In this document: one piece after another, positions 12,501-43,679 of the stretch
How the letters are laid out: every line of letters starts with the position of its first letter
How positions within the stretch are numbered: position 1 is the stretch's first letter
Assembly (NCBI RefSeq): GCF_000219625.1
Contig: NC_018215.1
Span: 930,001 to 994,000 of the forward strand
Length of the DNA: 64,000 nucleotides
Direction of reading: 5' to 3'
From: Zymoseptoria tritici IPO323
Lineage: Eukaryota; Ascomycota; Dothideomycetes; Mycosphaerellales; Mycosphaerellaceae
The notes under the pieces: generated by a model
The model's database searches: none
The model's input: only the letters and a program-made list of their open reading frames with translations
What the model was told of the DNA's origin: nothing
Made by a program: the position numbers and the translations under genes

Positions 12501-14280
12501 ATGTTACGCCCTCCTTTATCTTACGCGCTATTACTAAACGTATCGCCGTTCCTATAGTATATCCTCGACTCCGAAGCGGCCGATACCGAGAGCGCCCTTA
12601 CCGCGTCTATCGCTCCCTTAGAACTACCGATCCCTACCGAGTTTTAACGTACGAACGACTACCTTAGTTACATAGCTTAAGTACTAGCTACTATACCGAT
12701 CCGTAGCTATAAGGGCCTCGATCTTATACGGCCGTCGCTTTATAGCTTTACTATCGCTATATCTTCCCTTAATAAGGACTCCTAGGTATAGTAGTATAGC
12801 TATCGGCTTAATAAGATAGACAATAAGGGCAAGACGGTAGAGTAGTAGCTCTATAGGACTTACTATTAGAAGAGATCTAGTATACTACATAAGTATTAGA
12901 CGAGATCTTAGACGAGTAGTGCTAGTAATTATCTAAAGATAGTGTACTAGCTTAATAAACACGGAGTAATAATAGTAGAAGTACTATAATCCCTAAGGAA
13001 GCGTAAGGTAACAGACATGTTTAGACTACCTCTCGAGACTAACTATATTACTATTAGTCGTATTGTAGCTACGTTTAATGCTAGTTACTTTAAGGCTATA
13101 CTTCTTTAATAGATTATCTTCTGCTCGATCCCCTTCCGTAAGGTTAATAACCTTAAGTTTAGAGACATACTTATCTACCTTAATCTAATAGTTAAAAGAA
13201 CGCTACTAGATTATACGACTATAAGCCGGTAGCTACATAAGGCATATAGTAGTTTCCTCGGTGTTATAACTAAGCTGCTCGTAATAGCGCTTAGCCTTAT
13301 TTACTTCTTAATAGATATATAGACGTCCTCGAATAGTATTGCTCTTAATAGCCTTATAGCGCACTTTATTAATAACACTAGTAAGCTCTAGAACTTCGTC
13401 CTTAGCCTACCTATATACTATAGCTCTTATAGCGGCGTTAATATCGCTAAAACTACTATTGCAATTATATACTAATTCTCTATTCCTTACTACCGGATCG
13501 GCTACTTCTATAGTAACAAAATAAGCAACAACGATACGTACATAGCTACTCTTATAGCGGAGTTTAGCTATAGCTTCGACCCTATTAAAAGGAGACTACG
13601 CTACGTTAGTTATATCTTTAACCTTATTGCGAAGGCTTGTATAGTCGGTTATAAGGACGATAACGCTATAGAAGTAGAGCTTAATTAGGACGGTAAGAAG
13701 GCATTCGAGATGTTGCTAATATAGCGTAAGAAGGGCTCTGTTAGTAAGCTCTATAACATTATTATATACGTCCTTATCTCGCCGTAGCGTAAGGAGATCC
13801 TCGCTTATTTGTAGCTGCCCTCCGACGTAGATAACTACACTGTTATAAAGACGATATATAAGCTTATTCGCGACAACGACATACGCTAGAACAGCTTATA
13901 TGCTATAATCGAGCGTATAATTAAGCTACGTAATCCCCTTAATGTATTTGTACTACAGATCGTAAACAAGTAGTACTCGTACGAGGTTAGTAAACGTATA
14001 CTAAATATCGACACTTCTACTAACTCCTTCTTATAGACATCCTACAACTATAAGTATAGCTATAAGCCGGTTAATAAACGCCCTCTAAAGCGCTAGCGAC
14101 TAACGATCCTTAATAACCGCCTTACGTACGAGGATTAGTAGGTGTTAGTGTAATATATAAAGATCTTAAAGCCTCTCGCTTAGGCTACACTACGCCTTTA
14201 AGGACAGGTCGGTCGACATAGTTAGATTTAGCTAGTGTTGCTAACGCTTAAGAAGCTACTTAGTTACTTCGAGGACATAA
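12501..14280 (+). pseudogene. hAT transposase, N-terminal part (BED finger and DDE core), RIP-inactivated
   Basis: The frame starts at ATG 12501. A BED-type zinc finger is recognisable near 12780-12970: YSYRLNKIDNKGKTVE, two Cys-to-Tyr positions, then SNYLK and NKHGV. Further on are FRKVNNLKFRDILIYLNP near 13130 and the hAT core block LIDI-TSSNSIALNSLIAHF near 13310, then GVNIAKTTIAIIY. In-frame TAG stands at expected Trp and Gln positions, and the finger cysteines read as Tyr (TGC/TGT to TAC/TAT). The frame ends where Gypsy-1 inserted. Confidence 0.85.
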
Positions 14281-14658
14281 TGTGAGGATCCCCTCACGTG
14301 AGCGCAGTCTGGCCTCATCTCCCCTAAGCTGGGCCAACCTGGTTTCGAAGAACATAACAACGAGCTATCCTAGTTACGAAGAGCGCAACAGCGTACGGAT
14401 TAAGGCAGTCCGATCTAGCTTGCCTCTTAATGCCTAACGATAAGGATCGAAGGGCCACGAAGGGACAGACGATCCTGCTTATAACAAGAGAAGTAAAGGA
14501 TAGGGGAATAGAACCTAGCAGTAGCTATGTATATAGCGAAGAAGGCTCTCCTCCTCTATTCCCTCCTTTAACGAATCGAGTCGTTACATTCTAAAACCTA
14601 TTGTTCGATACTTCCCTACTTTAGTCTCTCCCTGCCTTATTACAAGGCAATCCTAACA
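14281..14658 (+). repeat. Gypsy-1 5' LTR
   Basis: 378 bp, same length as the 3' LTR. Differences from it are overwhelmingly CA versus TA or TG versus TA; for example CCCCTCACGTGAGCGCAG here reads CCCCTTACGTAAGCGTAG in the 3' copy. CGATTCG starts two bases after the LTR end (14661-14667), a possible primer-binding site shared with the other two families. Confidence 0.93.
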
Positions 14659-14689: not shown

Positions 14690-17600
14690 TCGAACCCCCG
14701 ATCGACATAGCACCTAAGGCTACTTGCAGACGCGAGGAATCTCCTTCCGACACCTCCGCTCGCTAGCAGGGTGCTATACTAGCCGCTAAGTCCGACGCGG
14801 ACGCCGCCGCCCGCTAGCTAAGCGCTACCTCTATCGCGGAAACTATAGACGATGCCGGAACGACCTAGGAAGGCACCGACTCGACTACCTAGGCTAACCT
14901 AGTTTAAGGGGACGTACTAACCCGTAAGAAACGGAACTAGGAAGCCTAGGCAGAATACGAATTCCTCGAACTCTAGCAAAAGATTAAGGAACTCCGGAGC
15001 GAACTAGCCTTATATAGCCTAATTACCCTAAGGAGGGAGAAACTTGCTAAACTCTTCGCAGAAACAGACTATTTCGACAAGAACAAGGACAGCCTCCCTA
15101 AGTCTAAGGAACTACCCGTATTCGAAGGGAAGACCTGTACCAATTACGAAGACTAGCTCCGCGCGGTAGAACGCAACTTCCGCAGATACTATAGATTCTC
15201 TAACCGGGAGGACCGGAAGGTCGACTACGCTACTAACTATATAGGCAAGCTCTAGCAAGACTACTAGGAGCGCTACGTAGATTAGCTCGACGGCTAGACT
15301 ACGCTAACCTAGACTATAATAAAAGGAGTTATGCTTAACTCTATAGGGACAGAGGCGGAACGCTGCGAGAAGGCCTACGAACAATTGCGGAAGGCCTCCT
15401 TCGGAGACCGCACCCCCGACTAGCTCCTCGAAGAGCTAAAGATCCTTTAGAAGGAGTTAGAAGAAGAGAACGAGGGGCGTAAGATCCTTAACTTTAAGGC
15501 CTCCTTACTATAGAACTACTACTCCCGCCTCTCTAACTACCTAGCTCCGGCTACTACGCTTATTAAGGCCTAAGAGAGGGTTAACAAAACCTACAGGATT
15601 ATCGAGGGTCAGAAGCAGGAGTTAAGGGACAACCCGGGCCGTAGAAGAGGCAAGGGCAACCGAAAGAGACGTAGAAGCAATAGTATCGACGACTAGGACT
15701 CTAAGAAGTCTAAGTCGGAGGACAGATCGGACTAGAGGGGCCTATCTAAGGCTACTTACTACGGTTGCTACTAGGTCGGGCATATTAAGCGCAATTGCCC
15801 TAACCCTTCCCTCTAGAAGGACTCGGAAAAAGAGGCGCCCCCTAAGTAGACGCTGCTGTCTTAGTAAGCTAGGTTCTCTATACTAAGGAGCAGCGCAGGA
15901 TAGCGGAGCCGGGTCGGCGCCGCTATAAGCGTAGGCGCCTTATCGAAGTTACGCTAACCTTAAATAGTCTAGGGAGGACCAGAACGGTCGCGGGACTAAT
16001 CGACAGCGGCGCGCAGGATAACTTCTATAACTCCTTGTTAGTAAAGGACATAGACTAGGTTATCTAGGAGCCGCCCGCTAGGGTCGCGTATAAGACGCTA
16101 AACGGGCAAAGCCTTTAGGTCCTTAGCGAAACGCGGAGCTTATATAAGGCCCGGGACGACTTAGGACGAATGTACGGATACGTCGACACCTTTAGAGTAG
16201 GGCGCATCTATAGCTATAAGGTCGTCTTAGAGATGCCTTAGCTCGAGAAATACAATCTAAACGTAGATTTTACCTTAAAAAGGGTTAACTAGAGAACAAA
16301 GCCCCGAAAACGACAGGCGATAGCTGTCGTTAGGCTAGAGAGGTTCTACAGGGAGTGCCTTAGCGAAGTAAACGCGGCACTTTATGTTATAACGATCTAG
16401 GACGCGTCGGAAGAAGCTAGTCCGGGTTAGGGGGGCGTTCCGAGTGCCTACTTTAACTTCGCGGATGTCTTCTCGGAGGAACTTGTAGGCGAGTTAGCTC
16501 CCTACAGTCTATATAATCTAAAGATCGAGCTAGTAGAAGGAGGAAAGGTCCCCTTTAGTCCGATATATGCCCTGTCCGAGGCAGAGATAGAGGCTATGCG
16601 GACCTAGCTACCCGAACACCTAAAGAACGGGTTTATTAGGCGGTCGACGTCGTCGGCTAGCGCTCTAGTCCTCTTCGTACGGAAGAAGGATAATACCCTC
16701 CGCCTGTGTGTCGACTACCGTAGTCTAAACGCGGTAATAGTTAAGAACAGGGGGGGTCTACCTCTTATTAGCGAGTCCCTCGACTAGCTAGCCGGTGCTA
16801 GGTACTTTACCAAGGTCGACCTGCGCTATGCGTACTATTAGGTGCGTATTAGGGAAGGCGACGAGTAGAAGACGGCATTCCGGACTAGGTACGGCTATTT
16901 TAAATATACAGTAATGCTATTCGGGCTTTGTAATGCCCCGGCAGTGTTCTAGAACTTTATTAATAGCGTCCTAGTAGGACTAGTTAATATCTTCTGCGTT
17001 ATATACCTTAACGACATCCTAATTTACTCTAGAACGCTTAAAGAGCACGAGGATTACGTCCGGCAGGTCTTAGAACGGCTGCGACGGCACAAGCTGTACG
17101 CTAACCTAGCTAAATGCGAGTTCTACAAAAGCTAGGTCGAATACCTAGGCTACGTAGTTACCTAGGATAGGCTGCGGATCGACCTAGAACGTATTAAATC
17201 GGTCTAGGAGTAGCTAGTCCCTACGTCTATCTATAACATAAGGGTCTTTATTAGTTTTGCTAACTACTACCGACGCTTTATTAAGGGCTTCTTGCGGCTA
17301 GCGGCCGCCCTAAACCGCTATACTAAAGGCAAGAAGGCGGCGAACTAGCGCCGAAGAGAGCGTGCTTATCTCGAATTAGACGACAGGGCGATCTAGTCCT
17401 TCTATAAGCTACGCCGCAAGTTCGCAGAAGAGCCCGTTCTGCGCTACTATAACCTAGAGCTCCCCTATTAGGTAGAGACCGACGTATTAGGGAAAGTAAT
17501 ATCGGGCATCCTATCCTAGCCTTATAACAAGGGGGGCAAACTGCAGTAGTTCCTGGTCGCCTACTTCTTAAGGAAGATAATTACGGCAGAAAGGAACTAC

Positions 17601-19463: not shown

Positions 19464-19819
19464 GAAAAATCCCGAGGGTTTCTAAGGGACTTAGACAAAA
19501 TTACTTAAATTTAAAAATTCGAAGGGCGGAATCGGCTTTATTCTAGTCTAATCTAGTCTAAGTTAACTAACTCTGCGCTATTTAACAACTATCTAGGCCC
19601 CGCTATAGTCTTAATATGCTATGTCGACGTTATCTGTTATACCCCTAGTCCCGGAAGACCTACGCCCGCTATTCTAGTCTAGAATAGCTTAATTAAAGTC
19701 GGAGTCGCCCTAGTTCGGGTCCTCTACTTTACTATAGTCCTTAGCAGTCGTCGGAAAGACTATCTTGCGCAACTATCTCTTCTTTAGAGCCTAGTCGCTT
19801 ATAACAATGCAGTTAAACA

Positions 19820-20034
19820 TGTCACATCTGCCTCCGCCGAATACCGACAATCGGCATCTAATCCCCTGCCTCAGCAGCATATGCACCCCTACTAGGGCCT
19901 TTTAAGCTCGTTTAAGCTAGATTGCGCCTGTAGTATAAGGATACGTAGAATCTCCTCCTTCCGAGAGAGTATCGAATCGAGTCTGTTCTAAAGTGATTTA
20001 TACTGCTACTCTATTCTTAACTGCACCTTTTACA
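19820..20034 (+). repeat. Gypsy-2 5' LTR
   Basis: 215 bp, TGT..ACA. Compared with the 3' copy, differences follow CA/TA and TG/TA exchanges (TGTCACATCTGCC here versus TGTTATATCTACC). CGATTCG starts two bases after its end, at 20037-20043. Confidence 0.92.
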
Positions 20035-20040
20035 TACGAT

Positions 20041-23000
20041 TCGATCTACCCTATAGTACGACGAATTACTTCCGAGATAGCTTCGTCTCGTCCCGGCCTA
20101 TTAGGGAGCAAGAGCACCCGTCGCCGTGCGAACGAACCCGCTAACGACCCGGAGACTATAGAAACCTCTACCTAGACTGCCGTTAGCGACGACGAAGACG
20201 CCGAAGGCGGGCCTAAAAACCTAGAAGAACCTATCGGGCACTAGGATGCCGCTAACGAGGGCGAAGAAGAACCAGAGAACCCTCTATAGGAAGAAGACAC
20301 CCTACCTAAGGGAGAAGAAGACGACATTAATAAACAAATCCGCAAGGAAGAGGCCGCTACCGCTAGACAGGAGCGCCTCCTCTAGCTTAGCCTTCTCTAA
20401 GCACGTAATAAGGCTATAAGGGACCGCATCGCCTAGGTATAGAACGGATCTATCCCTACTGTCCTGCCCGATGCCCTAGTTCGGCTATCTATCCCTAAGA
20501 ACGCGCTCCTAAAGGCCCGGAATCCCTACATCTTCGAGGGAAAGAACCGCGCCGACTAGGAATAGTAGCAGGAAGACATTAACCGAGCAATTAACCGGGC
20601 TAGCATAGCTACCGACGAAGAAAAGATAGAATTCGCTAAAGAATAGATAGCGAGACCCTAAAAGCAGCACTAGAAGCGCTACCTTCTCGACAAGGCACCT
20701 ATTCGGCTAATATAGAGCGATATGCAGCTCGTAATGCTAGATTCTATAGGTACAAAAGACGAACGTACTTAAAGAGCTATAGACAACATTAAAGAGGCTA
20801 AATAAGGCGACAGGACCCTAACCGGGCTAATAAACTACCTAAAAGAATAGTAAGATAAGATCGGTTGCACCGACATTCCTAGGATAATCTATAAATTTAA
20901 GGAAGCTCTTACCCCGGCAGTTAGAAACAGGCTCGAACAGGGCTAAGTTACCCTTACGACCCTCGTAGATGCGGAGGAACGAGCTAATATATCGTACCGA
21001 CAGATATAGGAATTTAACAAAAAGCGCTTAGTAAAGACTTCCGTCGACGAGACTAACAGAAGGCGCCTAAACAAAAACAACAAGCCCCCGAGTAGGCCGA
21101 GAAGGGCTAAAACCCCCCCGAAGGCGGCTAATAAGGAGAAGTTGGCTACCGCCTACTAGACATATAGCAAAGAGGGCCACCGGCGCTAGGAATGCCCTAA
21201 CAAGGACTAGTCGGGAAAAGGGAGAGCCCGCAGTAGATCTCCTCTAATCGCTGCGGGTTAAGTCTAGTACTTAGAGGCCTAAAGAAAGGCTGCCGAGCTA
21301 GGAGGAATCCCCCGAACTACAGGGGAAGGGCTAATACGCCTTAAAGTAGAGATGCAGGGTCCTAATAGGACTAAGACACTCCGAGCACTGCTCGATTGCG
21401 GAGCGCAAAGCAACTTTATAGACAACATAGTAGCTAAAGAGCTAGGCCTAAGCCCCGAGTTAGGGCAAACGGCCTAATACGTAGCACTAAACGGCTAGAG
21501 GATAGCTATTTAGGAAGAATGCCGCGTCCTGTTTAAAGTAACGGACACTTAAGGACACACAAGAGGATATGTAGAAACCTTTGCAGTCGGAAGAATCTAC
21601 GGGTTCTAACTAGTCCTCGGTATGCCCTAGCTAGAACGATAGAACCCGAGGGTAAACTTTATCCGCAAAAGCATTACCTAGAAGGGGACGAAAGGCAGAC
21701 AATAGAGGCCGGTCAGGCTCGTCTTACCTAAAGAGTTCTAGAAGGACGCTTCTAGCATCCCTTCGGGGCGCGTTTAGGCCCTTGCCGCTTAACGCACAGA
21801 CGACGCGCTAAAAGAACCGGAACTTCTAAGCGAATTCTCGGATTTCGCGGACGTTTTCGCAGAAGGAAACGAGTCCCTTCTCCCCGAGACAGGGCCGAAT
21901 AAGCTTAGTATCGACCTCGAAGAAGGCAAGGAGGCCCTGTACGGCCTATTATACAACCTCTCTATAACAGAACTAGAGACTCTGCGCAACTACCTCGCCG
22001 ACAGCCTAGAGAAGGGGTAGATCCGCCCCTCGACCTCCCTAGCGGGGGCAGGCATCCTCTTTGTAAAGAAAAAGGACGGTAGCCTACGTCTGTGCGTCGA
22101 CTACAGGGCCCTTAATGCCGTTACTATTAAGAATAGACACGCCCTGCCCCTCGTCTAGGAATCTCTGGACTAGTTAGCGCCGGCAAAGTTCTTTACAAAG
22201 CTAGATATACGAGACGCGTACTATCGCATCCGAATTAAGGAGAGTAACTAGTAGAAAACTACCTTTCGGACGAGGTATAGCTACTTTAAGTACACTATAG
22301 TCCCGTTTAGGCTAACTAATGCCCTAGCAGTGTTCTAAGGATACATAAACTACGCCCTCCGGGGCCTGCTAGACTACTATGTTATAGTATACCTCGACGA
22401 TATCTTAATATACTTACAAGACGCCGAAAGCTACAAGAAACACGTTAGGATAGTCCTCGAGAGACTTAGAAGACACCGACTCTTTGCTAAACTGTTAAAA
22501 TGCGAGTTCTTTAAGCGGCAAGTCGGCTACCTTAGGTTCGTAGTAACCCTAAAAGGGGTCGAAATAGAGGCAGAAAGGATCTAAGCTATCGCTAACTAGC
22601 CCCTTCCGGCCTTAGTTAGGGACATTCGCATCTTTATCGGATTTGCGAACTACTACTGCTAGTTTATTAAGGGATTCTCCCGCATAGCTAGCCTACTAAA
22701 CCGCTTGACAGAAAGAGGCCTAAATAGTGCTAAAGGAGGATACCGACAGAGAAAGGAGGAATTAGTTCCCCTCGAGCTCTTACCTAACGTAGTACAAGCA
22801 TTCTAGCAGTTAAAGACTAGGTTTATTAAAGCGCCTATCTTGCGGCATTTCGACCTAAAACTGCCTATCCGCGTCGCAATAGATGCCTCTAGGTTCGCTA
22901 TCGGGGCAGTACTATCCTAACCGCATAAAACAGAGGGCAAAATGCACTAGCACCCGGTAGCCTTCTTCTCTAGCAAGATAAACGCAGCCGAAAGGAACTA

Positions 23001-24976
23001 TAACACACACGATTAAGAGCTTCTCGCTATAGTCGAGGCCTTTAAGCACTAGAGACACTACGTTAAGGGCGCTTCGCACCAAATTAAGGTCTTAACAGAC
23101 TATTACAACCTAAAATGGTTTATAACAACTAAGCAACTGAGCCGAAGATAGGCAAGATAGGCAGAGCAGCTGTTAAACGTCGACTTCCGCATAACGTACA
23201 ACCCGGGGTCGCTTAATGCCGCCGCGGACGGAGTAAGCAGACGCCTAGACTTAGAAGATAGGGACTACTCGGGACGGTAGATTAACGAAAGCGACAGTGC
23301 TCCTGCATTAGACACCCTTCGGCACTAACTAGGTCTGTCTAAGGGAATAACGGCCGAATCTAGCCCTATTCGGTCTATAATAGCAGTTACAACCTACTAT
23401 CTACAGCTCGCTAGGACCTACTACAGCAAAACGTACATAATAGCGAGCACTCTAATAGAAGAATTATCAGACTCCCCGCTAATTAATATAATACGCGAAA
23501 GCCTAAAACATAACCCTATAGCATCGACAGTCGAACTAGCTATAAATAACCCGGATCTGCCGGAATAGACCTAAAGGTAGGCTATACAGGGCGAATTCCT
23601 CTTCTACGAACAGAAACTGTACGTGCCTGCGGGCCTAGTATGCCTAGCAGCTCTCCGCTAGTGCTATAACGATCCCCTGGCTAGCTACTTTAGTTTTAAA
23701 CGGACCCTAGAGCTGTTGCAACAGTCGTTCTACTGGCTAAACATAAGAAAATACGTTAAGGACTACGTAAACAGCTGCTAGACATGCGACAGGGCGAAGC
23801 TACGGCGATATAGCCTATATAGAGAACTCCACACGGAAGCTCTACTAAACGGGCCCTAGGAGGACCTAACATTAGATTTTATTACCGATCTGCCCCTAAG
23901 TACGTTTATAAGGCACACATACGACTTAATCCTCGTTGTTATAGACAGGTGGTCTAAAATAGCCTACTACATTCCCGTACGGAAGGACATTAACGCCGAA
24001 ACCCTCGCGGAGGTCTTCTTAAGAGAAATCTTCTGCCTTTACGGAACTCCTAAGTTAATTACGTCCGACAGAGGACTAATCCTTATATCTAAGTTCTGGA
24101 GCACGCTTTGCTACTACCTTAGGGTCCGAAGGGGCCTAAGCACTATATATTACCCCCAAACGGACGGTTAGACGGAACGTTAGAACCAAACGCTAGAGCA
24201 ATACCTACGAGTGTACTACAACTACGAACAGGACGACTAGGCACAAATGCTGTTAGTAGCCGAATTCTCTTACAACGATAGCGTTTATGCGACAACAGGG
24301 GTAATACTATTCTAAGCATGTAACGTTCGCGATCTAATTGCCGCTAGATAGCCCGACCTGCCCTAATTAGAGGGCAAAGCTCCTAGTGCGGCGGAAATAG
24401 CGCACAGAGTAATCGGCCTGCAGAAAACGCTATATAAAAGACTAGCTGCGTTACAGGAGAGACACGCACGATACTACAATGCTCGCAAAACAGCGAAAAC
24501 ATACAAGGTTGGCGACCGTATGTACCTCTCTACTTGGTATTTAAAGTCTATCCGGCCGTCGGAAAAGCTCGATTATAAGTATGTCGGCCTATATAGGATT
24601 AAGCGAGTCGTAAACGACGTCGCGTACACGCTAGAACTGCTAGAAACGATAAACATCCATCCTACATTCTACATCTCCCTGCTGGAGGAGGAAAAACCTG
24701 CCAAAATCACTAAATAGGCCTAGAATAGCCTAAAGGAGATCCGATTAGAGGAACCCGACATTTACGTAGTAGACAAGATCCTAAAGCGTAAGAAACAACA
24801 CGGCAGATGGATGTACAGGATCGCGTAGAAGGGCTGGCCCGCGTCTGAAAACACTTGGGAACCTGCGACTTACATTAGCCCTACTGCGATAAGAGCATTT
24901 AATAGAAGCACGGGAGGTACTAAGGGCGGTAGACTAGCACGATAGATATACAAACGCGTTATTAGTTACTATTAAG
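20041..24976 (+). pseudogene. Gypsy-2 gag-pol with chromodomain, RIP-inactivated
   Basis: Domains in order: gag with a damaged zinc knuckle (TYSKEGHRR-ECPNKD near 21160), protease LLDCGAQSNF near 21385, reverse transcriptase with [13 protein letters not shown] near 22090 and an intact YLDDILIYL near 22390, RNase H (VAIDASRFAIGAVLS near 22870, ELLAIVEAFKH, LTDYYNLKWF), integrase (LDFITDLPLS, LVVIDRWSKIAYY, ITSDRGLIL between about 23870 and 24090), GPY-like region in the open frame 24520-24714, and a chromodomain at about 24750-24910 (DIYVVDKILKRKK, then GWPASENTWEPATYISP). TAG or TAA replaces Trp and Gln in many places. The 5' end of gag is uncertain. Confidence 0.85.
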
Positions 24977-25297
24977 GCCCAAAAGACACTAGTTAACACT
25001 ACACTAACTCCTTAGTCCGGTTCTTAGTTACCTAAAAATTTTCTCTACCTTAGAAGAATTTTAATCTAATAAAATCCTAGGGGGGGAAATTAAGGGCCAA
25101 ACGGGCCCCTAAGGACGACATTATTACACAACGAGAGACAATCGAGCATAGTAAAGTTATTTTGATTCTATCTAATCTATAAGTCGCTAAGTCGCAGCAA
25201 AAAGAAACAACCCGGGCGTTACCGCGCCTATTAGTCCTAAAACGAGCCTAAAAAAGGCTAAAAGAGACAAAAGAAACACGAAAAAGCGCTTACATGC

Positions 25298-26161
25298 TTA
25301 TTCCTTAGGCTTAAGGTCCCTAGAGAGGTCGTACTCGGTCGGACGGAGCACTCCCTCTATAACGGAGGCCTTCGAGCCCTTCTTAGCGCCCGCACGGGTA
25401 TAGACAGTGTCTAGAGCGGCCGAAAGGGCCCGAACGCGATGCCTTAGGCGGTCCTCGGTAGATCCTTAGGCCAGAATAAGTCGCTTACGGGGGGTGTTAG
25501 GCACGTCTTTACCCTGTTAGGGTTAGTAGGGCACTTTTAGGCAAGAAGGGACCTAAATACTTACAAGCTCCCTCTTTCGCTTTATAGCCTCCTTAGCGAG
25601 CAACTTCTCGCGCTTTCCAAGCACAAGCGGTCCCGTCTAGTCGAATTCGGCCTTGCCTTAGTGCAGATAGAGGCCGTTAACACCGGTAAAGGAGTTAAAG
25701 CGCCTAAAAGGGGGTTAACGGAGCTAAACAGACCCGAACTAACTACACATACCCCTTAATGCGCACGTAGACCGCCTTGTAGGCCGAACAAGCCGCCGCA
25801 GCTATCGCTCCGGTACTATCGGCGGCAATAGCGGCCCTGCGGAGCTTATTAGCCCTCGTAATGTCGCCTTTAACTAGTTCCGGCATCTTTTGACTACATT
25901 AGCCCCCGAAAGCCCCCTTTTGACCCTATATGTATATACCTAGAAACAATCGCGGTTAGAGCAATTGTAACACTTTAGGTAATATTCTTCCTTATTATTA
26001 GTTGCCTACTTGTCCGGCGATTCGCGCGCAAAGAGGCAGAACTAGGCTAAATCGGCCTTGTTTAAGGGCTTGTTAAGGCAGTTAACGCACAGATTGCCCT
26101 TAAAGATACTATTAGCGGCGAATTGCTTGCGTTAGGTCGCGATAGAGGCGGGTTGCGTTAT
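25298..26161 (-). pseudogene. Gypsy-2 antisense cysteine-rich accessory gene, four exons
   Basis: Exons on the minus strand: 26161-25940, 25886-25753, 25703-25565 and 25513-25298. Introns: GTATAT..AAAAG with branch GCTAAT (53 nt), GTATGT..TTTTAG with branch GTTAAC (49 nt), GTAAGT..AACAG with branch ACTAACC (51 nt). The splices keep one frame of 237 codons ending in TAA at 25298-25300. Exon 1 has NLCVNCLNK, W/Q-FC, YLKCYNCSNRDCF; exon 3 has GVNGLYLH-GK; exon 4 has RKRLIL and EDRLRHRVRAL. The proposed start is ATA, which RIP would make from ATG, so the start is an inference. The first intron lies at the same place as in the Gypsy-1 and Gypsy-3 genes, and the length of 53 nt equals that of Gypsy-1. 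Function unknown; putative zinc-binding protein. Confidence 0.72.
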
Positions 26162-26497
26162 AATAGGCTCGTTCGGTCGCGGATAGGGTCGTTTGGTAAG
26201 AATAGCGGTTTTTCGATAAAATTCGAGGTCGTCCGGTAGAAAATAGGGCTAGAGGAGAACTAAACGCTACGTTAGCACTATACAGGCTACAAATGCCCCT
26301 TAGGGGGGCACTTTTGGACCTGTTTGGCTATCGGATAGGATTAAGTTACACTTACTAAGTCTGCACAAGGTTGTTAAAGAAGAGAAGAACTCGAGGGATC
26401 CGAGCCTAGGTTTTAAAGCCGCAGTAGACCCTAATTAAGGCCTTAGGCTATTAAACTTGGTAAACACCAAAAAGAATTTACTCGAGGTAAAACCGTT

Positions 26498-26531
26498 CAG
26501 AGCGCGACGCTCTGCGCAAGGAGGGGGGCTA
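26498..26531 (+). promoter_or_regulatory. Gypsy-2 hairpin and polypurine tract
   Basis: CAGAGCGCGACGCTCTG (26498-26514) folds into a perfect 7-bp stem with a CGA loop. It is followed directly by GCAAGGAGGGGGG, the polypurine tract that primes plus-strand synthesis, then by the 3' LTR at 26532. Confidence 0.75.
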
Positions 26532-26746
26532 TGTTATATCTACCTCCGCCGAATACCGACAATCGGCATCTGATCCCCTACCTTAGCGGCATATGCACCC
26601 CTACTAGGGCCTTTTAAGCTCGTTTGAGCCAGATTGCGCCTGTAGTATAAGGATACGTAGAATCTCCTCCTTCCGAGAGAGTATCGAATCGAGTCTGTTC
26701 TGAAGTGATTTATACTGCTACTCTATTCTTAACTGCACCTTTTACA
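26532..26746 (+). repeat. Gypsy-2 3' LTR
   Basis: 215 bp, same length as the 5' copy, ending TTTTACA, then the AAACA duplication. Confidence 0.92.
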
Positions 26747-27596
26747 AAACACCTCTAAGGCAGTGCTAACCGCGATTAGGCGATCCTCGGCCTCCTTAGT
26801 ACGCTTACGGTCCGACTTGCGGCCGCGTACGTCTATTAAGCGGCGCTTCTTGCTAGGGGTGCTACTAGACTGCTACAAAGAATGTTAGTAAGGGCTAGAT
26901 TAAGCTAGGGATAGTATATATAGCCTTCGCTAAGATCGCACTAGCCGAGCAGTCCCTCTTAGGCACCTTCTGTCTAGTATCCTCCTAGGTAGTAGTACTA
27001 GGGTGCTAGGAGAGACCGTCCTCGCTACGGAAACTGCTATCTAACTTCCTGTTTAACTATCCTAATTAGCTGCTAGTCTAGAACACGCTAGAAAGGGACA
27101 CTTACGCCTCTATAGAGCCTGTAAAATATAGAACACGATCTAGCAAGTCTTCCTTCTTAGCCTTAGACTAGGTAGTGCGGCCGTAGACGGTATCGATATC
27201 CTGCTTAATAGCTTTCTAGGCGGGCTCCTAGTCGACCGGCATCTAAGTAGGACAGTTAGCGATAGAACACGCTAGAATTAACTAAACCGACCTACCTAAA
27301 GATAGTCCGCATTCTTGCTAGTTAGGCATCCGGAACACTTAGCCAGGATATTACTGGGTAGGGGCTTCTCTGCCGCAATCTAGCAGATCTTAGACAGGTC
27401 CTAGCCCTCCTTAACGCTAGAGAGGCATAACGAGTACGGATTCTCGTTCTACCTACTAGCTCGGACTTTCTTGTAGTACTTGTCGCGAAGATAGTAGAGT
27501 GCGCCGGACATTATGCTAGTCTAGTCGCAATGTTAGCTAATCTGGCGCTAATCTAGACTGTTCTAGAGCTAGCTGCTAGTACTTACTTTTAGTAGG

Positions 27597-27925
27597 TGTT
27601 AGAGACACCTCGAGAGGGAATGTAGGCTTGCACCGAAAACAAATAGTTGTAGAATGTAACGAGTCGATTCGATAAGGAAGGGAATGGACAAGAGCGTCCC
27701 CCGAGGCTATATACCCGCCCTTCGTGTTGCTAAATGCGTCCCTCCGCCTAGACTAGGCACCGGTCGCAGTCTAACGTCCGCTCGGGGGCTATCGTACGCC
27801 CGTAAGGTTTGTCCCTCTACAGGATGTCCTAGTCTAGGCTAGATAAGATAGCACCGGTAATCTGCAGTGCTAGGATAGTCCAGGTTAGGACAGGTAGGGG
27901 GCGTTATCGTAAGGGTGTCCTTACA
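27597..27925 (-). repeat. Gypsy-3 3' LTR (left copy)
   Basis: 329 bp. It keeps TGTTAGAG at its outer end where the right copy reads TATTAGAG, a TG to TA change. Confidence 0.92.
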
Positions 27926-27962
27926 TTGCCCCCCTCCCCTCTCTGCAACTAACCTTAGTTGC
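27926..27962 (-). promoter_or_regulatory. Gypsy-3 polypurine tract and hairpin
   Basis: On the minus strand GAGGGGAGGGGGGCAA (27926-27941) abuts the LTR. GCAACTAACCTTAGTTGC (27945-27962) is a perfect 8-bp stem palindrome just upstream of it. Gypsy-1 has the same palindrome stems at 34559-34576. Confidence 0.78.
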
Positions 27963-28161
27963 GGTGGAAAATTCACAAGCTGTTAGCTGCTAGATGTCCT
28001 AATCTAGAAGGATTTGCGGGTCCGTAGCGTCGCTATATTAATTTAATTCTTCTTCTAAACTTTCTCTCTTCTTTACTAACTACTAAAAAGTAAGTAATCT
28101 AGGGTAGTGCTAGTATAGTCTAGTTTGGGTCTAGCAAGGCTAATATTAGCGCAGACATACT

Positions 28162-29063
28162 ATGTCTTCCGCCGCCGCGGCCCTCGTGCGCAACGATTAC
28201 GCTAAAAAGGTCCGCAACGGGGCTTTTAACTACAATCCGTGCTTTAATTGCATTAAAGACGTTAAGCTAAACAAAGACTTAACTAAACTGTGCTAGTTAG
28301 CGTTAGAGAAGCCCATTAAGGGCATTACTGCTAAGTGCGCCGGCTGTCTAGACGACAGAAATGCCGACTGCTTCTAGGTAGGATATTTCTAGACTGTTCT
28401 GGAGTCTTCTGGATCCAGGCTAACCCTAAATAGCTCCCTCCGGCCCGTAAGGACGAGTAGGACACTATTAATGCCTAGATTTAAGCAGAGTACGCTAATC
28501 CGGTAGTAAACGCGGACAATAGGAAGAAGTTAAGGAGCAAGGTGCTCCTGTTTGCTAGTTCGATTAAGTTGTATATGCCGTTCTGGCTTATTTTGGACTA
28601 GTATGCTAACAGTTGGCGCCTTAGGGAGCTTAGAAACAGCGTTCGCGGCCCGGAGGGTCTCACTTTGCACTAGGGTACCCGCGCGTAGGACACGACAGGT
28701 TAAAAGGTTAAGAAGCAGGACAAGTCGGCCGCTGCTTATATAGAGAAGGCCGTGAGTGTACCGTTCTAGCGCATTTTAGGCTATGCTAACGCCAGGATGT
28801 AGGAGCAGGCTGCTACCGGGACCCCGAGGGCTAAGAGAAGCCGCCTAATTAATCTAAAGGGCGCTATTACGGTCCAGTCGTTAACAGACAAGCTTAACAA
28901 GTACAAGACTGCCTTGCATCGCAATAGCAGGGCCCTAGAGAGGTTTAATTCGTACGCTAGGGGTACGGGAAAGACTAATAGGGAGGCGTTAAAGGCTTTA
29001 GTAAGCACTACGGCCGCTTAGGAGCGTAGAGAGGACGCTTCGGACAAGGATAGCGATAATTAA
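28162..29063 (+). pseudogene. Gypsy-3 antisense cysteine-rich accessory gene, two exons
   Basis: Exon 1 is 28162-28377 (72 codons, start ATG), the intron 28378-28433 (GTAGGA donor, GGCTAACC branch, AATAG acceptor), exon 2 28434-29063. The spliced frame is 281 codons plus stop, interrupted only by TAG/TAA where Trp or Gln is expected. Exon 1 carries NPCFNCIKD, DLTKLC, AKCAGCLDDRNADCF; exon 2 carries GPEGLTLH-GTRA and a basic RAKRSRLINLKG, then a probable helix KLNKYKTALHRNSRALERF. It lies between the left LTR and the end of pol, opposite in strand to pol. Exon 1 equals Gypsy-1 exon 1 in length and aligns along its whole span. No known domain name comes to mind; the CxxC pairs suggest zinc binding (inference). 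Confidence 0.75.
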
Positions 29064-29309: not shown

Positions 29310-32300
29310 TACCGCGCGCAGTTGGTCCTTCCTAGCCTATTCTGCGCTAGTAGGCCCGCATTGCTGCCGGGCTAATGTTAACTGCTGCTTCCTAGGAGTT
29401 CTCGGACTAGTTGTAATCTTTCTACTTAATAAGGTACTCCCGATTGTTCAGTTCGTCTATACGTTCGGCTAGAATAGCCTCGACTTCGTATTCGTTGTCC
29501 TCTCCTGCGTCGTATCGCATTATCCTGTCCTGTTTGCGACTAAACTAGTCCGGGATAGATAGTTCTAGCAGAGAAACATAGAAGGTTAGATAGATCTTTA
29601 GTAAGTCTAGTAGATCGAGCATGTATGCGACGCGGTTAATAACCGCTTTTACCTTATAAGGTCTAATGTATTTGTAATCGAGCTTCGCCGAAGGTCTTAA
29701 TAATCTAATGTTGCGTATATTAAGGTAGACTTCATCTCCGACGTTAAAGGAGATGTCCTTCCTATGCTCGTTCGCCTACTTAGCTATTTGCTTCTTTGTT
29801 TTAGCCAGTCTAACCCGCAGTTTCTTCTAGTTGGAGATAACGCGGTCTGCAAGTTGTGCGGCGAACGGGGCTTCTCGTCCATTCTAGCGTAGTCTGGGCT
29901 AGTAGCACCGCCGAGGGTCCCGTGTCGTGTACGCCTAGAATAGCGTAACCCCTGTTGCGGAGTGTACGCTGTTATTATACGAGAATTCCGCAGTAGAGAG
30001 TAGGGAGGCCTAGTTGTCCTGTTCGTAGTTGCAGTATATACGAAGATACTGCTCTAGCGTCTGGTTTTGGCGCTCTATCTGCCCGTCCGTTTAAGGGTAG
30101 AACGCTGTGCTTAGTTTTCGGCGTATGCTAAGGCAGAAGCAGAACGTGCTCTAGAATTTTAAGGTTAGGATAGGCCCTCGATCCGACGTAATCGTAGCTA
30201 GTACGCTATAGAGTCGTACGACTTCCCTTATAAACACCTCTGCGAGCTCTGCTGCGGTAATCGTCTTCTTGCATAGCGCATAATAGACTATTTTAGTGCA
30301 TCTATCTACGATTACTAGGATTAAGTCGTAAGCCTAGCCTAGAAGCATGCTAGGTAGCAGGTCTGTTATAAAGTCTAGCGTTACATCCTCCTATAGTATA
30401 AGCGATAATAGCTCTACGTGTAGCAATCCGTAAGGTTTGTGCCGCCGTAGCTTTAACCTGCTGCACGCTTAACATATTCGTATGTAGTCCTTAACGTATT
30501 TCCTTATTTTAGGCTAGTAGAAGCTCCTTTGCAGAAGTTCGAGTGTTCGAGAGAAGCCGAAGTGCCCTGCTATAGGGTCGTCGTAGCATTCCTAAAGCAG
30601 TTAGAGTCTTATACTTCCTTTAGGTACGTAGGCCTTGCCGTCTATATACGCGACTCTATCTTCGTTAGTCTATCGATCTGCCTAGAAAGCAGGTTCCGCT
30701 TAGTCCTTCTCCTCGTTAATCCTGTTAAAGGTTAGATCTTTTAAGAGGGCGCGTTTTAGGCGCGTTTTCAGGTCTAGGGCGTCCTTTACTACCCCTACGT
30801 ACCTTACTAGTCTATTATAGTCTAGATGCGGTTGGAATGCCGTCTAGAAGAGCCGCAAGCTTGCAGACGACTCTTCGTCTATAGCCTACCGTCCAGAGTA
30901 GTCCTTATCCGTTAGGTCGGGCCTTCTACTTAGTATATCCGCCGCCCTATTAGCCTTGCCGGGTCTATAGATAGTCCTAAAGTCGATCTGCGATAACTAC
31001 TCGGCCTACCTAACCTACCGCCTGGACAAGGTCTTGGTCGTTATAAGAGTTTGTAGGTTTATATAATCCGTTAGTAGTTCGACCTAGTATCGAGCCCCCT
31101 CTAGGTATTATCTAAAGTGCTTAAAGGAGTCTACGACTACTAACAGCTTAGCGTCTTCCGTAACGTAGTTCCGTTCTGCCGCAATTATCTTTCGTAAGAA
31201 GTATAATACAGGGAACTACTACGTTTTGCCGTAGTCTTCGTATAGTTAGCTTAGGATGCCCGAGATTGCCTCGCCTAAGGCGTCGGTTTCTACCCTATAG
31301 GGCAGTTCTAGGTTAAAATAGCGTAGGATAGGGGCTTCCGAGAACTTTTTCCGCAATTCGTCGAAGGAAAGCATAGCTTGCTCGTCGAGCTCTAAGTATG
31401 CTCGTTCCTTCTTGCGTTAGTTTACTACCTTTTTCCCCTCCGTGTAGCGGTTAAGTGCCGTAGCGAGGCGTAAGAAGCCCTTAATAAAGCGCCTATAGTA
31501 GTTCGCGAAGCCGATAAAGACCCTAATGTTATATATTAACTAGGGAAGTAGCTACTCCTAGACCGATCTGACCTGCTCTAGGTCGATCTCTAGCCTATTA
31601 CGTATAATAACGTACCCGAGGTAGTCGACGCGGTCCTTATAGAAATCGTACTTAGATAAGTTAGCGTACAGCTTGTATTTCCGAAGGCGCTCTAGCACTT
31701 CCCGGACGTAGCCCTCGTGCTCCTCTACCGTTTTAGAGTATATAAGGATGTCGTCGAGGTAAACGACGCAGAACACGTCGATTAACCCTACTAGCACGCT
31801 ATTAATAAAGTTTTGGAACACCGCGGGGGCATTGTAGAGCCCGAAGGGTATTACGGTATATTCGAAATAGCCGTATCTGGTCCGGAAGGCTGTCTTCTAC
31901 TCGTCGCCTTCCCGGATACGGACACGGTAGTACGCGTAGCGGAGGTCTATCTTCGTAAAGTACCTAGCGCTAGCTAGCTAGTCTATTAACTCGGAAATTA
32001 AGGGAAGACCCCCCCTGTTCTTTACCGTAACCGCATTTAGGCCGCGGTAGTCGATATAGAGGCAGAGTATGTTATCCTTTTTCCTCGCGAAGAGGATTAG
32101 CGCGCCCGCCAAGGACGTCGAGCGGCGAATAAAGCTACTCTTTAGATGTTTAGGGAGCTACTTGCGTATCGTATCTATCTCCGCCTCCGATAGAGCGTAC
32201 ATAGGGCTAAACGGGACCTTTGCTCCTTTAACTAGGTCGATCCTAAGATCGTGCGGTCTATATAGTGCTAACTTGCTAGCTAACTCCTCCGAAAAGACGT

Positions 32301-34060
32301 CGGAGAAGTTAGAGTACGCTGTTAGGACGCTATTCTGGTCTAGTTCGAGTCTATCCTCGACCTCTTAGATCGACATAACGTAAAGAGCTGCCTCGACTTT
32401 ACTAAGACACTCCCGGTAGAACCTGTCCGGGGACACTACTGCTATTACTTGCTGCTTTCGAGGTTTCTGCCTCTAGAAGACCTTCTTTAGAGCGAAGTTA
32501 ATACCCGGGTTATACTTCTCGAGCTAGGGCATGCCGAGCACGACTTCGAAACTGTAGATGCGTCCTACCTTAAACGTATCTACGCACCCCTACGCCTTGC
32601 TAGAGGTGTCTATAGCCTTGTAGGAGTTTCTCGTTTCTTTAAAGACCTATAGGCTCTAGCTATTTAGAGTTAGGTACTTTGTCTAGGTAGATAGCTCGGA
32701 AACTGTCTACCCTATTTCCTTTACTAGTATAGAATCGTAGAAGTTGTCCTGGGCGCCGCTATTAATTAGGCCCCGGACCCTTCTAGACTCCCCTAGGCTG
32801 TTTAGCGTTAACTCGACGCTAATTAGGCGCCCTTGCTAGGCGCGGCGCTTTCCTAGCTTAGCCGAGCGCCGCTAGTCCTTATTATAGAGGACTTAGCCTA
32901 CCTAAGCAATAGCGTCTACTTAGGGGGCGTCTCTTTCCCCGAATCCTTCTACAGGTGCTAGTTAGTGCAGTCGTAGCGGATATGCCCGACCTGTTAGCAT
33001 CCGTAGTACGTAGCCTTAGAGGGGGCCTTCGGGTTCTGTTCGCTATTGCTAGTCCTTACCTTCTTACCGTCCGGAGTAGCAGAGCTGTCGCTAGGGCGCT
33101 TCTTCGCCTGCTTAGCGGTCCTTTTAGTAGCCTACCTCTTACGAGCCTCTTATTTAGAGCCCTCGTTAGCACGGTAGGCCTTCTTAGCCCTCTCCTCGGC
33201 GTCTACTAGGTTTAGTAGGGTAGTAGGGTAGTTCGAGAGGCGGTTGCGAAGGGTCTATAAAAGGGCGCTATAGAACCTAAGGATCTTCTTACTATCGTCC
33301 CTTTTATCGAGCTCCTTCTAGAGTGTCTTTAGCTCCTTAAGGAGTTCTTCCGGCGTGCGGTTACCTAGGGTAACCTTTTTTAGCTTCTCGTAGGCCTTCT
33401 CGCGCTGTTCGGTCTCTGTGCCTATCGAGTTAAGTATAACCTCCTTTATTATAGACTAGGTTAGCTTAGAATGGTCGTTAAGGCCGTCGACGTAGCGTTC
33501 CTAGTAGTCTTGCTAGAGCTTTCCTATATAGTCGGTAGCAAAGTCGACCTTGTAGTCTTCGCGTTTAGCAAATCCTTCGTATTGTCTAAAGGCTCTTTCG
33601 AGGGCTCGGACCTAGTTGTCGTAGCTCGTACGCGACTTGCCTTCGAAGACTAGTAGCTCCTTTAACTTAGGAAGGTTATCCCTCGTCTTAGTATGCTAGT
33701 TAGGTTTAGAGAAAAGATAGCGGAGGGTAGCCGTCCTTAGGTTCCCTTCTAGCGTAGGATAGTCTAGTTCGGAACGGAGTTCCTTAATCTTCTGCTAAAG
33801 GGTTAAGAACTCGAAGGTAGCGCGGGCGACTTCGTTGTCGTGCTCCTAGGTAGCCCTTTCTTCTAAGGTCTCTCCCGAGCTAGGCTAGTTAAGAAGGTTA
33901 ACATCCTATAGCTAACTAGCAGGCGTAGCCGATAGCTCTATAGAGGAAGCGCTCGCCTACTATCGGGCGGAGGTGTTAGGAAGGGAATCGTCCTAACGAC
34001 GGGTAACCTTTAGAGCTATGTCGGTAGTTTTCGGTATAGTTGTACGGTTGTTTTTAATCG
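29310..34060 (-). pseudogene. Gypsy-3 gag-pol with chromodomain, RIP-inactivated
   Basis: Minus-strand frame with TAG at Trp/Gln sites. The zinc knuckle (YYGC-QVGHIRYDC) is near 32975-33015. The reverse transcriptase is best preserved in the open segment 31558-31821, where VVYLDDILIYS keeps both catalytic Asp. Integrase lies at about 30050-30560 and the chromodomain at about 29370-29560 (REYLIK-KDYN-SENS-EAAVNISP). Gag occupies about 33050-34060 with an acidic and lysine-rich composition. The exact start was not determined. Confidence 0.82.
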
Positions 34061-34067
34061 AATCGAA

Positions 34068-34396
34068 TATTAGAGACACCTCGAGAGGGAATGTAGGCTT
34101 ACACCGAAAACAAATAGTTATAGAATGTAACGAGTCGATTCGATAAAGAAGGGAATAGACAAGAGCGTCCCCTAAGGCTATATACCCGCCCTTCGTGTTG
34201 CCAAATGCGTCCCTCCGCCTAGACCAGGCACCGGTCGTAGTCTAACGTCTGCTCGGGGGCTATTGTGCGCCTGTAAGGTTCGTCCCTCTACAGGATGTCC
34301 TAGTCTAGGCTAGATAAGATAGCACCGGTAATCTGTAGTGCCAGGATGGTCCAGGTTAGGACAGGTAGGGGGCGTCATCGTGAGGGTGTCCTTACA
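34068..34396 (-). repeat. Gypsy-3 5' LTR (right copy)
   Basis: 329 bp. Immediately inside, on the minus strand, CGATTCG begins two bases from the LTR edge (34065 down to 34059), the same spacing as in Gypsy-1 and Gypsy-2. Confidence 0.92.
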
Positions 34397-34558: not shown

Positions 34559-34595
34559 GCAACTAAGGTTAGTTGCACCGGGGGGAGGGGGGCAA
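34559..34595 (+). promoter_or_regulatory. Gypsy-1 hairpin and polypurine tract
   Basis: GCAACTAAGGTTAGTTGC (34559-34576) is a perfect 8-bp stem palindrome. It is followed by ACCGGGGGGAGGGGGGCAA, the plus-strand primer tract, then the 3' LTR at 34596. Confidence 0.78.
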
Positions 34596-34973
34596 TGTAA
34601 GGATCCCCTTACGTAAGCGTAGTCTGGCCTTATCTCCCCTAAGCTAGGCCAACCTGGTTTCGAAGAACACAACAACGAGCTATCCTAGTTACGAAGAGCG
34701 TAATAGCGTACGGATTAAGGCAGTCCGATCTAGCTTGCCTCTTAATGCCTAACGATAAGGATCGAAGGGCTACGAAGGGACAGACGATCCCGCTTATAAC
34801 GAGAGAAGTAAAGGATAGGGGAATAGAACCTAGCAGTAGCTGTGTATATAGCGAAGGAGGCTCTCCTCCTCTATTCCCTCCTTTAACGAATCGAGTCGTT
34901 ACATTCTGAAACCTATTGTTCGATACTTCCCTACTTCAGTCTCTCCCTGCCTTATCACGAGGCAATCCTAACA
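34596..34973 (+). repeat. Gypsy-1 3' LTR
   Basis: 378 bp, pairs with 14281-14658. Followed by the CATAA duplication and then the rest of the hAT transposase. Confidence 0.93.
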
Positions 34974-39721: not shown

Positions 39722-41180
39722 CTACCGCCGAATTACGACTACCTACGTAAGGAGATTAAGGTTCTTCTTTAAGTCTTAGGCCTAACCTATAACGCCGTCC
39801 GAGCATAGATAAAAGAGTAGAAGGGCGTAGATATATCGCATACTACGTTCGAGCGTATAATCGCTACTTAGGGGATTATAACGAGACTACGTAAAGCTAA
39901 TCTTAATGCCTATAATAAGGAGCGGCTAAGGGCTCGGATTAAGGAGCTGTTCTAGGAATTAGACAAGGACGATGCTACATACTATAAGATCCTTACTATT
40001 AATAGCTTTGCTCTCTTAAAGTAGTAGTTCGTAGAGCTAAGGAAGAGTATAGGATTGTATAGGAGGATTCTAAAGGATAACTAGCTATCCTATAATAAGA
40101 TTATTAAGAGCATGTTAGTCGGAGTAATTAAGGGTAGAGCGCTAGAAGATTACGGATACCGCAACCTCGTAAGGGAGATGCGGAACGAGTTTAAGCTAAT
40201 CGGAAGGTTCGTAATTTTAGCTATCTTAGTGCTTATCTTAGTGCTAACTGCTATATATAGGAACCAGATCTTTAAGATCGCCTATCGGATGAACTTAGCG
40301 CTATTCGATATACGCCGCATTAGTAAGCGAGTAAAGGTCCGCTCTTATCTTCTAAAGGCTAAGGGACTAAACTATATATAGTCGGTAGATGCCTATTGCA
40401 AGCTTAAACTCTTTAGCATTTAGATCTATTGCTGCATTAACGTGTATTTACAGAAGATTATATAGGCGTACGTTAGCACTATAGCTAAGACGAAGTTCTC
40501 GGTCTTTAGCTAGTATCTCGGTGCAGTAGATTAGCTCGGGTTTACTCTATAGGTAAGCCCTGTATCTATTAATCTCGGTAGACGTCTCGGTAGACGTCTC
40601 GGTAGACATCTCGGTATATAGGCTAACTTATATACACAGATCCTATAAGCTAACTATAGTGTAGAGACTCTAATAATAGCCGACGCCTACCTTTGCTTCC
40701 GTAAGAACTAAGAGGGCTATTAACTCTGTTTTAATAAAGCCTTTTAGTATACAACTAGCAAGGGTAATAACACTATTAAGCGTTTCTAGGGTCTTAGTAT
40801 ATTAGCAGCGTTTAACTAGTAGCGTAACCTCTTTATTAAGCTCCGCAACAACTGTCTATATAACGAGGATTAGCGGGCTAACCGTGTAGCCTTCCTCGCT
40901 ATATACGTGCTAATTATGCGATATATAGTTTGGCTATTCGTTAGCAGCTACAACTAACACTGCATTCGCAAGTACCCTAAGATTACTAGCTATATTACCG
41001 GTATTCCGAACACACTCTACGCATATCTAGAGTTAAAGGGGACCGAGAACTATAGTATCTATATTAATACTGCTTATCCTAAGATCCGACAAATAGTCCA
41101 AAATAAGGACGAATTCGGTGCGTATGCTATTAGCTAGGATCGCCGCTAAGATCTACCTAAGATCGTACATGCCGCGTTAC
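39722..41180 (+). pseudogene. DDE-integrase-like transposase of copy 1, RIP-inactivated
   Basis: Readable blocks: TTFERIIAT-GIITRLRKANLNAYNK near 39850, FALLK--FVELRKSIGLYRRIL near 40010, an open 89-codon stretch at 40112-40378 (NLVREMRNEFKLIGRF), then SVDAYCKLKLF near 40382 with the first catalytic Asp, QKII-AYVSTIAKTKFSVF, VETLIIADAYLCFRKN near 40660, and TSKGNNTIKRF-GL where the expected catalytic Glu (NTIERFW-like) reads Lys, a TG to TA consequence. This resembles fungal transposases annotated as integrase catalytic-core proteins; superfamily not assigned. A frame change near 40620-40640 may be an intron or indel. Confidence 0.65.
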
Positions 41181-43533: not shown

Positions 43534-43679
43534 TATAATCTTAGTACGTTTCTCGGTGTAGTATATAGCAAGGGCAGTATATATAAAGGAAGCAGACACA
43601 ATAGAAGCATATATAGAGGAAACTTAGGTATTATTTAGCAGCTCGAGAGCCGATCTTACTGTATCTTAGTGCGTTTCTT

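Follow-up and report, generated by a model that had tools for sequence, protein, structure and literature searches.

A spliced antisense gene common to three Gypsy families

A 64,000-nucleotide stretch of the genome of the wheat-infecting fungus Zymoseptoria tritici IPO323 (contig NC_018215.1, positions 930,001 to 994,000; hereafter the window, in whose own coordinates features are given) contains a nest of three Gypsy elements, G1, G2 and G3. Each of them carries, on the strand opposite pol and in the interval from pol to the 3' long terminal repeat (LTR), a gene with four exons separated by three introns. That this antisense gene is genuine we regard as very nearly certain. Judging from the comparisons below, it is inherited by at least three families of one fungal Gypsy lineage: its anatomy, its homology between families, its intron positions, its presence in 21/21 G1 elements and the joins of database proteins all argue for an old, inherited gene. 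On a fuller reading, it is an accessory gene of this lineage, transcribed and spliced, whose product is a nuclear, nucleic-acid-binding regulator of its own element; as a whole, we hold this statement to be about as probable as its negation. An earlier reading of the window (the original prediction) had proposed that the three families share a spliced, cysteine-rich gene lying antisense to pol. Cross-family matches, matching introns and database-protein joins bear this out, the strand opposite the gene bears the pol motifs each time, and the coordinates proposed for the gene, including its split in G1, proved right to the base.

Exon–intron structure

The G3 gene occupies positions 28162-29063 of the forward (+) strand. 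Exon 1 (28162..28377; 72 codons) comprises the six-cysteine region, in a frame common to G1 and G2. It is followed by intron 1 (28378..28433; 56 nucleotides (nt), GTAGGA...TAG, phase 0), exon 2 (28434..28570; 137 nt), intron 2 (28571..28624; 54 nt, GTATAT...TAG, phase 2), exon 3 (28625..28751; 127 nt) with the motif GLTLH, intron 3 (28752..28802; 51 nt, GTGAGT...TAG, phase 0) and exon 4 (28803..29063), which holds the basic segment KRSRLI and the terminal TAA. All three introns contain CTAAC.

The G2 gene reads from 26161 to 25298 on the reverse (-) strand and consists of exon 1 (25940..26161; 74 codons, six-cysteine region), intron 1 (25887..25939; 53 nt, phase 0, with the acceptor AAG, not TAG), exon 2 (25753..25886; 134 nt), intron 2 (25704..25752; 49 nt, GTATGT...TAG, phase 2, without CTRAY), exon 3 (25565..25703) with the motif GLYLH, intron 3 (25514..25564; 51 nt, GTAAGT...CAG, CTAAC, phase 0) and exon 4 (25298..25513) with the basic segment RKRLI and a terminal TAA. 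The G1 gene, also on the - strand, runs from 27511 to 26747 and continues from 19814 to 19689, being split by the nested G2 element. Its parts are exon 1 (27296..27511; 72 codons, six-cysteine region), intron 1 (27243..27295; 53 nt, phase 0), exon 2 (27106..27242; 137 nt), intron 2 (27049..27105; 57 nt, phase 2), exon 3 (26922..27048; 127 nt), intron 3 (26873..26921; 49 nt, phase 0, with an AT donor in the window copy) and exon 4. The latter is cut into a first part (26747..26872) and a second part with the terminal TAA (19689..19814), and the cut is marked by the G2 target duplication AAACA.

Thus numbered, the introns follow codons 72 (phase 0), 117 (phase 2) and 160 (phase 0) in G1 and G3 and codons 74, 118 and 165, in the same phases, in G2; their lengths span 49-57 nt. 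The original prediction had given the lengths of exon 1 (72, 74 and 72 codons in G1, G2 and G3) and of intron 1 (53, 53 and 56 nt) correctly; it found the first intron and missed the two further ones at matching positions. Likewise, the G-L-x-L-H motif that it reported for the gene is exact in G2 and G3, while G1 reads G-L-S-stop-H.

Two acceptors were chosen with the help of the reading frame. In G2 intron 1, an acceptor at 46 nt breaks the frame and was replaced by the frame-keeping 53-nt form, and in G1 intron 2, one at 44 nt was replaced by a 57-nt form on the same grounds. Because the frame guided their choice, this pair carries less independent weight than the other acceptors. The 53-nt form of G2 intron 1 is consistent with the join seen in a database protein (P0003, see below). 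When G1 DNA was tested from the donor onward, its likeness to G3 exon 2, which was given from its own acceptor, began at the predicted G1 acceptor. Two in-frame stretches of G3 that had been read as coding actually correspond to introns 2 and 3; each of these has a length divisible by three.

Splice signals and stop codons across copies

The genome searched comprised 39,686,251 bases in 21 contigs. It holds 21 copies of the G1 gene and at least 40 each of the G2 and G3 genes, from which samples were analysed. Only copies of unchanged length were compared: 18/21 for G1 (two were excluded for length, together with the interrupted window copy), 7/8 fetched for G2 and 28/30 fetched for G3. GT-AG is intact in 145/159 intron cells: in 18, 17 and 13 of the 18 G1 copies at introns 1, 2 and 3, respectively (48/54), in 20/21 cells of G2, and in 27, 22 and 28 of the 28 G3 copies (77/84). 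The remaining 14 cells all show an AT donor, the change that repeat-induced point mutation (RIP) gives. A CTRAY branch motif lies 9-17 nt from the acceptor in eight of the nine introns of the copies shown, G2 intron 2 being the exception. Introns with splice sites are therefore present in all three families.

In the spliced gene frame of these 53 copies, we counted 467 internal stops (198 in G1, 45 in G2 and 224 in G3), every one of them TAG or TAA. This agrees with the earlier claim that only RIP-type stops interrupt the gene. TGA is absent among these internal stops and was seen only as a terminal stop, replacing TAA, in 3/28 G3 copies. In the other frames, TGA occurs in four of the other five in G1 and in all five in G3, at 1-10 sites each. 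The six cysteine columns hold C, or a RIP-derived Y, in 53/53 copies.

The place of the gene within the element is also kept. Of 70 reverse transcriptase candidates, 40 were scored; 21 of these are G1 pieces at 92-100% identity, and the other 19, the window G3 element among them, are 76-77% identical. All 21 G1 pieces (at least 92% identity) pair with a gene copy (paired by hand, for G1 alone). The distance from reverse transcriptase to gene is 3446-3448 nt in 17 pairs, 4378 nt in one, and more than 10 kb in three, including the nested window copy.

Homology between the families

It is the protein comparison that carries the case for common descent. After splicing, the gene frames of G1 and G3 align with a score of 321 (82/237 identical), as compared with 73 for the best of 1000 shuffles and 136 for the best other frame; for G2 and G3, the score is 150 (shuffle maximum 66, best other frame 81). 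Without splicing, the gene-with-gene frame is still the best in each pair, scoring 170 (G1-G3), 103 (G2-G3) and 64 (G1-G2), with maxima over 100 shuffles of 60, 55 and 59, respectively. When the G3 exon-1 protein was searched against the genome, it matched 21 G1 places, with E between 7e-18 and 2e-10, and 7 G2 places, with E 0.001-0.007, all of which fall at the homologous antisense place; in the reverse search, a G2-type protein found G3 exon 1 from E 1.4e-4. The strand of the gene is thus settled, as far as these alignments tell, by homology and not by stop counts, and the antisense frame appears conserved between families, as originally predicted.

Between families, transversions are most frequent at third codon positions in 3/3 family pairs. 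The p-values for the third position against positions 1 and 2 were 0.19 and 0.085 for G1-G3, 0.025 and 0.0011 for G2-G3, and 0.015 and 0.10 for G1-G2. Within families, the changes are almost entirely transitions of a RIP-like kind (592 transitions to 3 transversions, 187 to 7 and 1204 to 74). Because such transitions make up nearly all within-family change, a true ratio of nonsynonymous to synonymous rates is unobtainable.

As a side observation, the DNA of G1 and G3 is 76-77% identical in the reverse transcriptase piece (16431-17132 vs 31637-32319), 143/208 (69%) in antisense exon 1 (27296-27511 vs 28162-28377) and 70/132 (53%) in exon 2. Between these two families, the antisense gene seems to be evolving faster than the reverse transcriptase piece.

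Database proteins and properties of the product

Two profile searches with spliced alignments, in each of which the best 8000 candidates by word sharing were scored, matched three proteins, all partial and all from other isolates of Zymoseptoria tritici; this choice of candidates may have missed distant relatives. In P0001 (138 residues, G3-like) and in P0003 (133 residues, G2-like, matching G2 exon 1), the joins fall at introns 1 and 2, exactly as modelled. P0002 (162 residues, G2-like, 6 member sequences) is joined at introns 2 and 3, again exactly as modelled; it lacks exon 1, its first residue is the earliest M of exon 2, and no stop interrupts it up to the end. P0001 and P0003 stop just ahead of positions that bear stops in the copies studied here, and P0003 begins with M, whereas the G2 start codon is ATA in the window copy. 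One G3 copy of the antisense protein shares 96% identity with a protein annotated in strain ST99CH_1A5; for a G2 copy, the identity to ST99CH_1E4 proteins is 92-94%. By the database matches, long stop-free stretches of the gene occur in other isolates.

P0001 contains exactly six cysteines, spaced C-x2-C-x13-C-x14-C-x2-C-x7-C (C27, 30, 44, 59, 62 and 70). P0003 shows C-x2-C-x13-C-x21-C-x2-C-x4-C (C25, 28, 42, 64, 67 and 72) and one additional cysteine further on. The protein is basic (isoelectric point 8.9-10.6), and a KRxRLI-like basic segment occurs in all three families.

The order CxxC-C-CxxC-C followed by a basic region is also that of the Zn2Cys6 fungal transcription factors. Their canonical spacing is C-x2-C-x6-C-x5..12-C-x2-C-x6..8-C, and the Zymoseptoria spacings of x13 and of x14 or x21 are unlike these short ones. 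Since both the spacing and the profile misfit, we did not place the gene product in Zn2Cys6.

The region upstream of the start codon

A C/T-rich tract lies between the LTR and the antisense start codon in all three families (28060-28074 in G3 and 26376-26389 in G2; the G1 tract was taken from uninterrupted copies). Its distance to the start is 102 nt in G3 (29/30 copies within one base), 105 nt in G1 (20/21) and 228 nt in G2 (8/8). The tract could be part of a promoter; antisense retroviral promoters occupy a comparable place, according to one source (PMC10186651).

A palindrome common to G1 (34559-34576) and G3 (27945-27962), GCAACTAA-CC-TTAGTTGC, sits directly inside the polypurine tract, where G2 has one of its own on the gene strand, CAGAGCG-TCG-CGCTCTG (26498-26514). 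In the window, the pattern GCAACTAA-NN-TTAGTTGC occurs twice, with 0.01 expected, and the G2 palindrome once, with 0.26 expected. Taken by itself, the latter could be a chance occurrence within the window, as 23/100 shuffles gave one with at most two mismatches. Across copies, the palindrome is perfect in 14/21 of G1, 9/30 of G3 and 3/8 of G2, and has at most two mismatches in 20/21, 26/30 and 8/8, respectively. To regard it as a binding site is speculation.

A proposed role and what weighs against it

The following scenario may be proposed for the favoured reading of a self-regulating accessory gene. Antisense transcription would start on the DNA copy, driven by a promoter immediately internal to the 3' LTR, and the transcript would be spliced in the nucleus like that of an ordinary gene. 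The introns would persist, the genomic RNA running in the other direction: this RNA, when reverse-transcribed, keeps the antisense introns unremoved. The original prediction had made this same argument for their survival, and we judge it sound. The product of about 240 residues, with a six-cysteine head resembling a zinc-binding one and a basic tail whose KRxRLI segment resembles a nuclear localization signal, would then enter the nucleus, bind nucleic acid and regulate the element's own expression, as retroviral antisense genes such as HBZ do.

It is tempting to go further and suppose a system like that of HBZ, evolved independently of retroviruses, in which the cysteine-cluster protein binds the control region of the element and tunes sense transcription. 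Its binding site would perhaps be the palindrome that adjoins the polypurine tract and lies between the promoter and the 3' LTR, and splicing would limit the protein to antisense transcripts from integrated DNA. This more specific version we consider unlikely.

Several observations weigh against the favoured reading. A regulator is the likeliest function, as suggested by the composition of the protein and by analogy, and it has a share in the even chances that we give the whole statement. Three plus three proteins matched 0 Pfam families up to E 10, including no match to the Zn2Cys6 (Zn_clus) profile; a search of the PDB gave no significant match (best E 0.15), and the AlphaFold model, made with three sequences, was unusable (mean pLDDT 45.6). 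A full-length stop-free copy was not seen among the copies studied here or the three database proteins. The spliced G1-G2 score, 59, equals both the best of 1000 shuffles and the score of another frame pair, because of which the relatedness of G1 and G2 rests on G3 as a link and on the introns. As for constraint, third positions are only modestly enriched in transversions (p<0.05 in 3/6 tests), 18 within-family difference sites of non-RIP type show no third-position excess, and in gapped alignments between families, introns are about as similar as exons. Finally, the sites at which all copies have a stop are 6 in G1, 5 in G2 and 2 in G3 in the gene frame, terminal stop included, against 7, 3 and 0 in the exactly complementary frame (-0). 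The latter is about equally open in all three families, and therefore stop counts cannot fix the strand. The counts for the remaining frames +1, +2, -1 and -2 are 11, 22, 10 and 20 in G1, 5, 15, 10 and 17 in G2, and 5, 7, 4 and 13 in G3.

Alternative explanations

The alternative that survives best keeps the real, spliced antisense gene and makes its product a nucleic-acid chaperone or an anti-silencing factor, directed against RNA interference, methylation or RIP. A basic protein with paired CxxC motifs would suit a chaperone or an RNA-binding role equally well, and the many RIP-like transitions in these families suggest that a counter-defence would be useful. Yet RIP in these very copies shows that any such protection failed, and the Pfam scans revealed no likeness to a described protein family. 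We think of this as a minority view, improbable and still deserving attention.

Alternatively, a host gene might have been captured once, as genomic DNA, and have travelled since then as a passenger without a role for the element. Introns common to all three families are what one would expect if DNA, and not messenger RNA, had been captured, and constraint is weakly shown. Against this, the same site is kept in three families and in 21/21 G1 elements, and genome searches brought up no host paralog or single-copy relative, the matches being copies of the three families with one marginal exception (E 0.036). Such an origin without function seems to us quite improbable.

It might also be supposed that the antisense transcript itself acts, through antisense or double-stranded RNA, and that the reading frame is incidental. 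A review treats this possibility for plant elements (PMC7264820), and the similar nucleotide identities of introns and exons would fit it. However, an incidental frame would not account for protein similarity specific to that frame, the lack of internal TGA, the matching intron phases and the database proteins, and we consider the idea very unlikely.

That the coding strand is the pol strand, with an env-like open reading frame of which the antisense frame is a shadow, is hardly credible: the complementary frame does have equally few every-copy stops, and unspliced G1-G3 similarity there reaches 128 vs 131 for the exon 2-3 frame, but once spliced, the complementary frames score 136 vs 321 (G1-G3) and 56 vs 150 (G2-G3), and the splice signals, matching phases and database-protein joins are all on the gene strand.

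Known relatives and significance

Genes of this kind are already known, since antisense genes at this place occur in Boty of Botrytis (brtn) and in Retand and Grande of plants; in this respect, the original prediction overrated the novelty of the gene. Among fungal Gypsy elements, the Boty-like elements of Botrytis cinerea likewise have an additional antisense gene, brtn, between pol and the 3' LTR. Published reports mention a Boty-like brtn in Sclerotinia (PMC7264820), a BRTN-like transcript in Monilinia (PMC5987419), brtn as an additional open reading frame of BcGypsy1 (PMC8365987) and a chromodomain gag-pol accompanying brtn in a Boty-like element (PMC4227169). We liken brtn to the Zymoseptoria gene by place and strand, from descriptions and not by sequence. 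If the two are homologous, the Zymoseptoria gene is a new member of a known family.

In plants, the antisense open reading frames of Gypsy elements (Retand with TRP28, Grande gene23 and RIRE2) have the same place and strand and are conserved through families. A regulatory or DNA-binding role has been proposed for them (PMC11963269, PMC7264820); in one of these reports, all recent Retand elements have antisense coding regions, and TRP28, probably DNA-binding, is found in 97% of clusters (PMC11963269). By these descriptions, the Zymoseptoria gene is set apart by its three position-conserved introns and its six-cysteine head.

HBZ, the antisense gene of human T-cell leukaemia virus type 1, encodes a basic leucine zipper (bZIP) protein. 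The Zymoseptoria proteins match no Pfam family and thus no bZIP domain; we draw a functional analogy with HBZ and claim no sequence relation. HBZ has a spliced antisense messenger RNA under 3' LTR control, as stated in two papers (PMC10186651, PMC6237760), whereas the Zymoseptoria gene is known here from DNA and annotated proteins.

A search of the literature by titles and abstract openings, with few subscription journals, found no description of this gene in Zymoseptoria. What is new here is the conserved three-intron structure together with the six-cysteine protein, and such a structure is rarely described in fungi. Introns lying in the sense direction get erased from retrotransposons; these three outlived the split of three families because they are antisense. 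Evidence of this kind for an antisense gene is immune to blurring by RIP. Similar genes may be sought by the same simple signature, introns whose codon positions match and which lie antisense in the stretch from pol to the LTR. Moreover, whether LTR elements in fungi regulate themselves can be put to the test with this gene, and the role of such genes, a question raised by the plant examples, becomes addressable in a tractable fungus.

The nested elements and further copies

All three families are of the Ty3/Gypsy (Metaviridae) type and have the antisense gene between pol and the 3' LTR. In the nest, G1 is the outer element, into which both G2 and G3 have inserted. The LTRs of G1 lie at 14279-14578 and 34594-34893, those of G2 at 19820-20034 and 26532-26746 (205/215 identical; target duplication AAACA), and those of G3 at 27597-27925 and 34068-34396 (309/329 identical; target duplication GTAGG). 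The 3' LTRs of G2 (26532..26746, +) and G3 (27597..27925, -) are located upstream of the respective antisense genes. The strand of pol follows from pieces which we take, by their motifs, to be reverse transcriptase and integrase; they lie on the + strand for G1 and G2 and on the - strand for G3. The reverse transcriptase piece of G1 (16953..17132, +) has YLND in the window copy, and those of G2 (22339..22581, +) and G3 (31561..31896, -) have YLDD.

Some of the further copies are split or diverged. This is the case for the G3 relatives L060, L061 and L062, of which L060 and L061 (G000:C2:1872800-1875600 and 1892900-1895300), separated by about 20 kb, each hold a part of a G3-type exon 1 that complements the other and are apparently one gene copy split by other insertions. 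L063, L064 and L065 match G2 at 289/360, 726/862 and 787/862 bases; the differences are mostly transitions (8, 20 and 7 transversions, respectively), and we take these loci as older or more RIPped relatives. L065 and a second G2 gene copy (G000:C6:204712-205117) are oppositely oriented, separated by about 13 kb and almost equal in match score, and the pair is perhaps an inverted duplication. In IMG/VR, 14 pattern matches included no relative. Outside the nest, the window contains another low-GC block (40000-56000; GC 0.40-0.46), which perhaps consists of further RIPped repeats.

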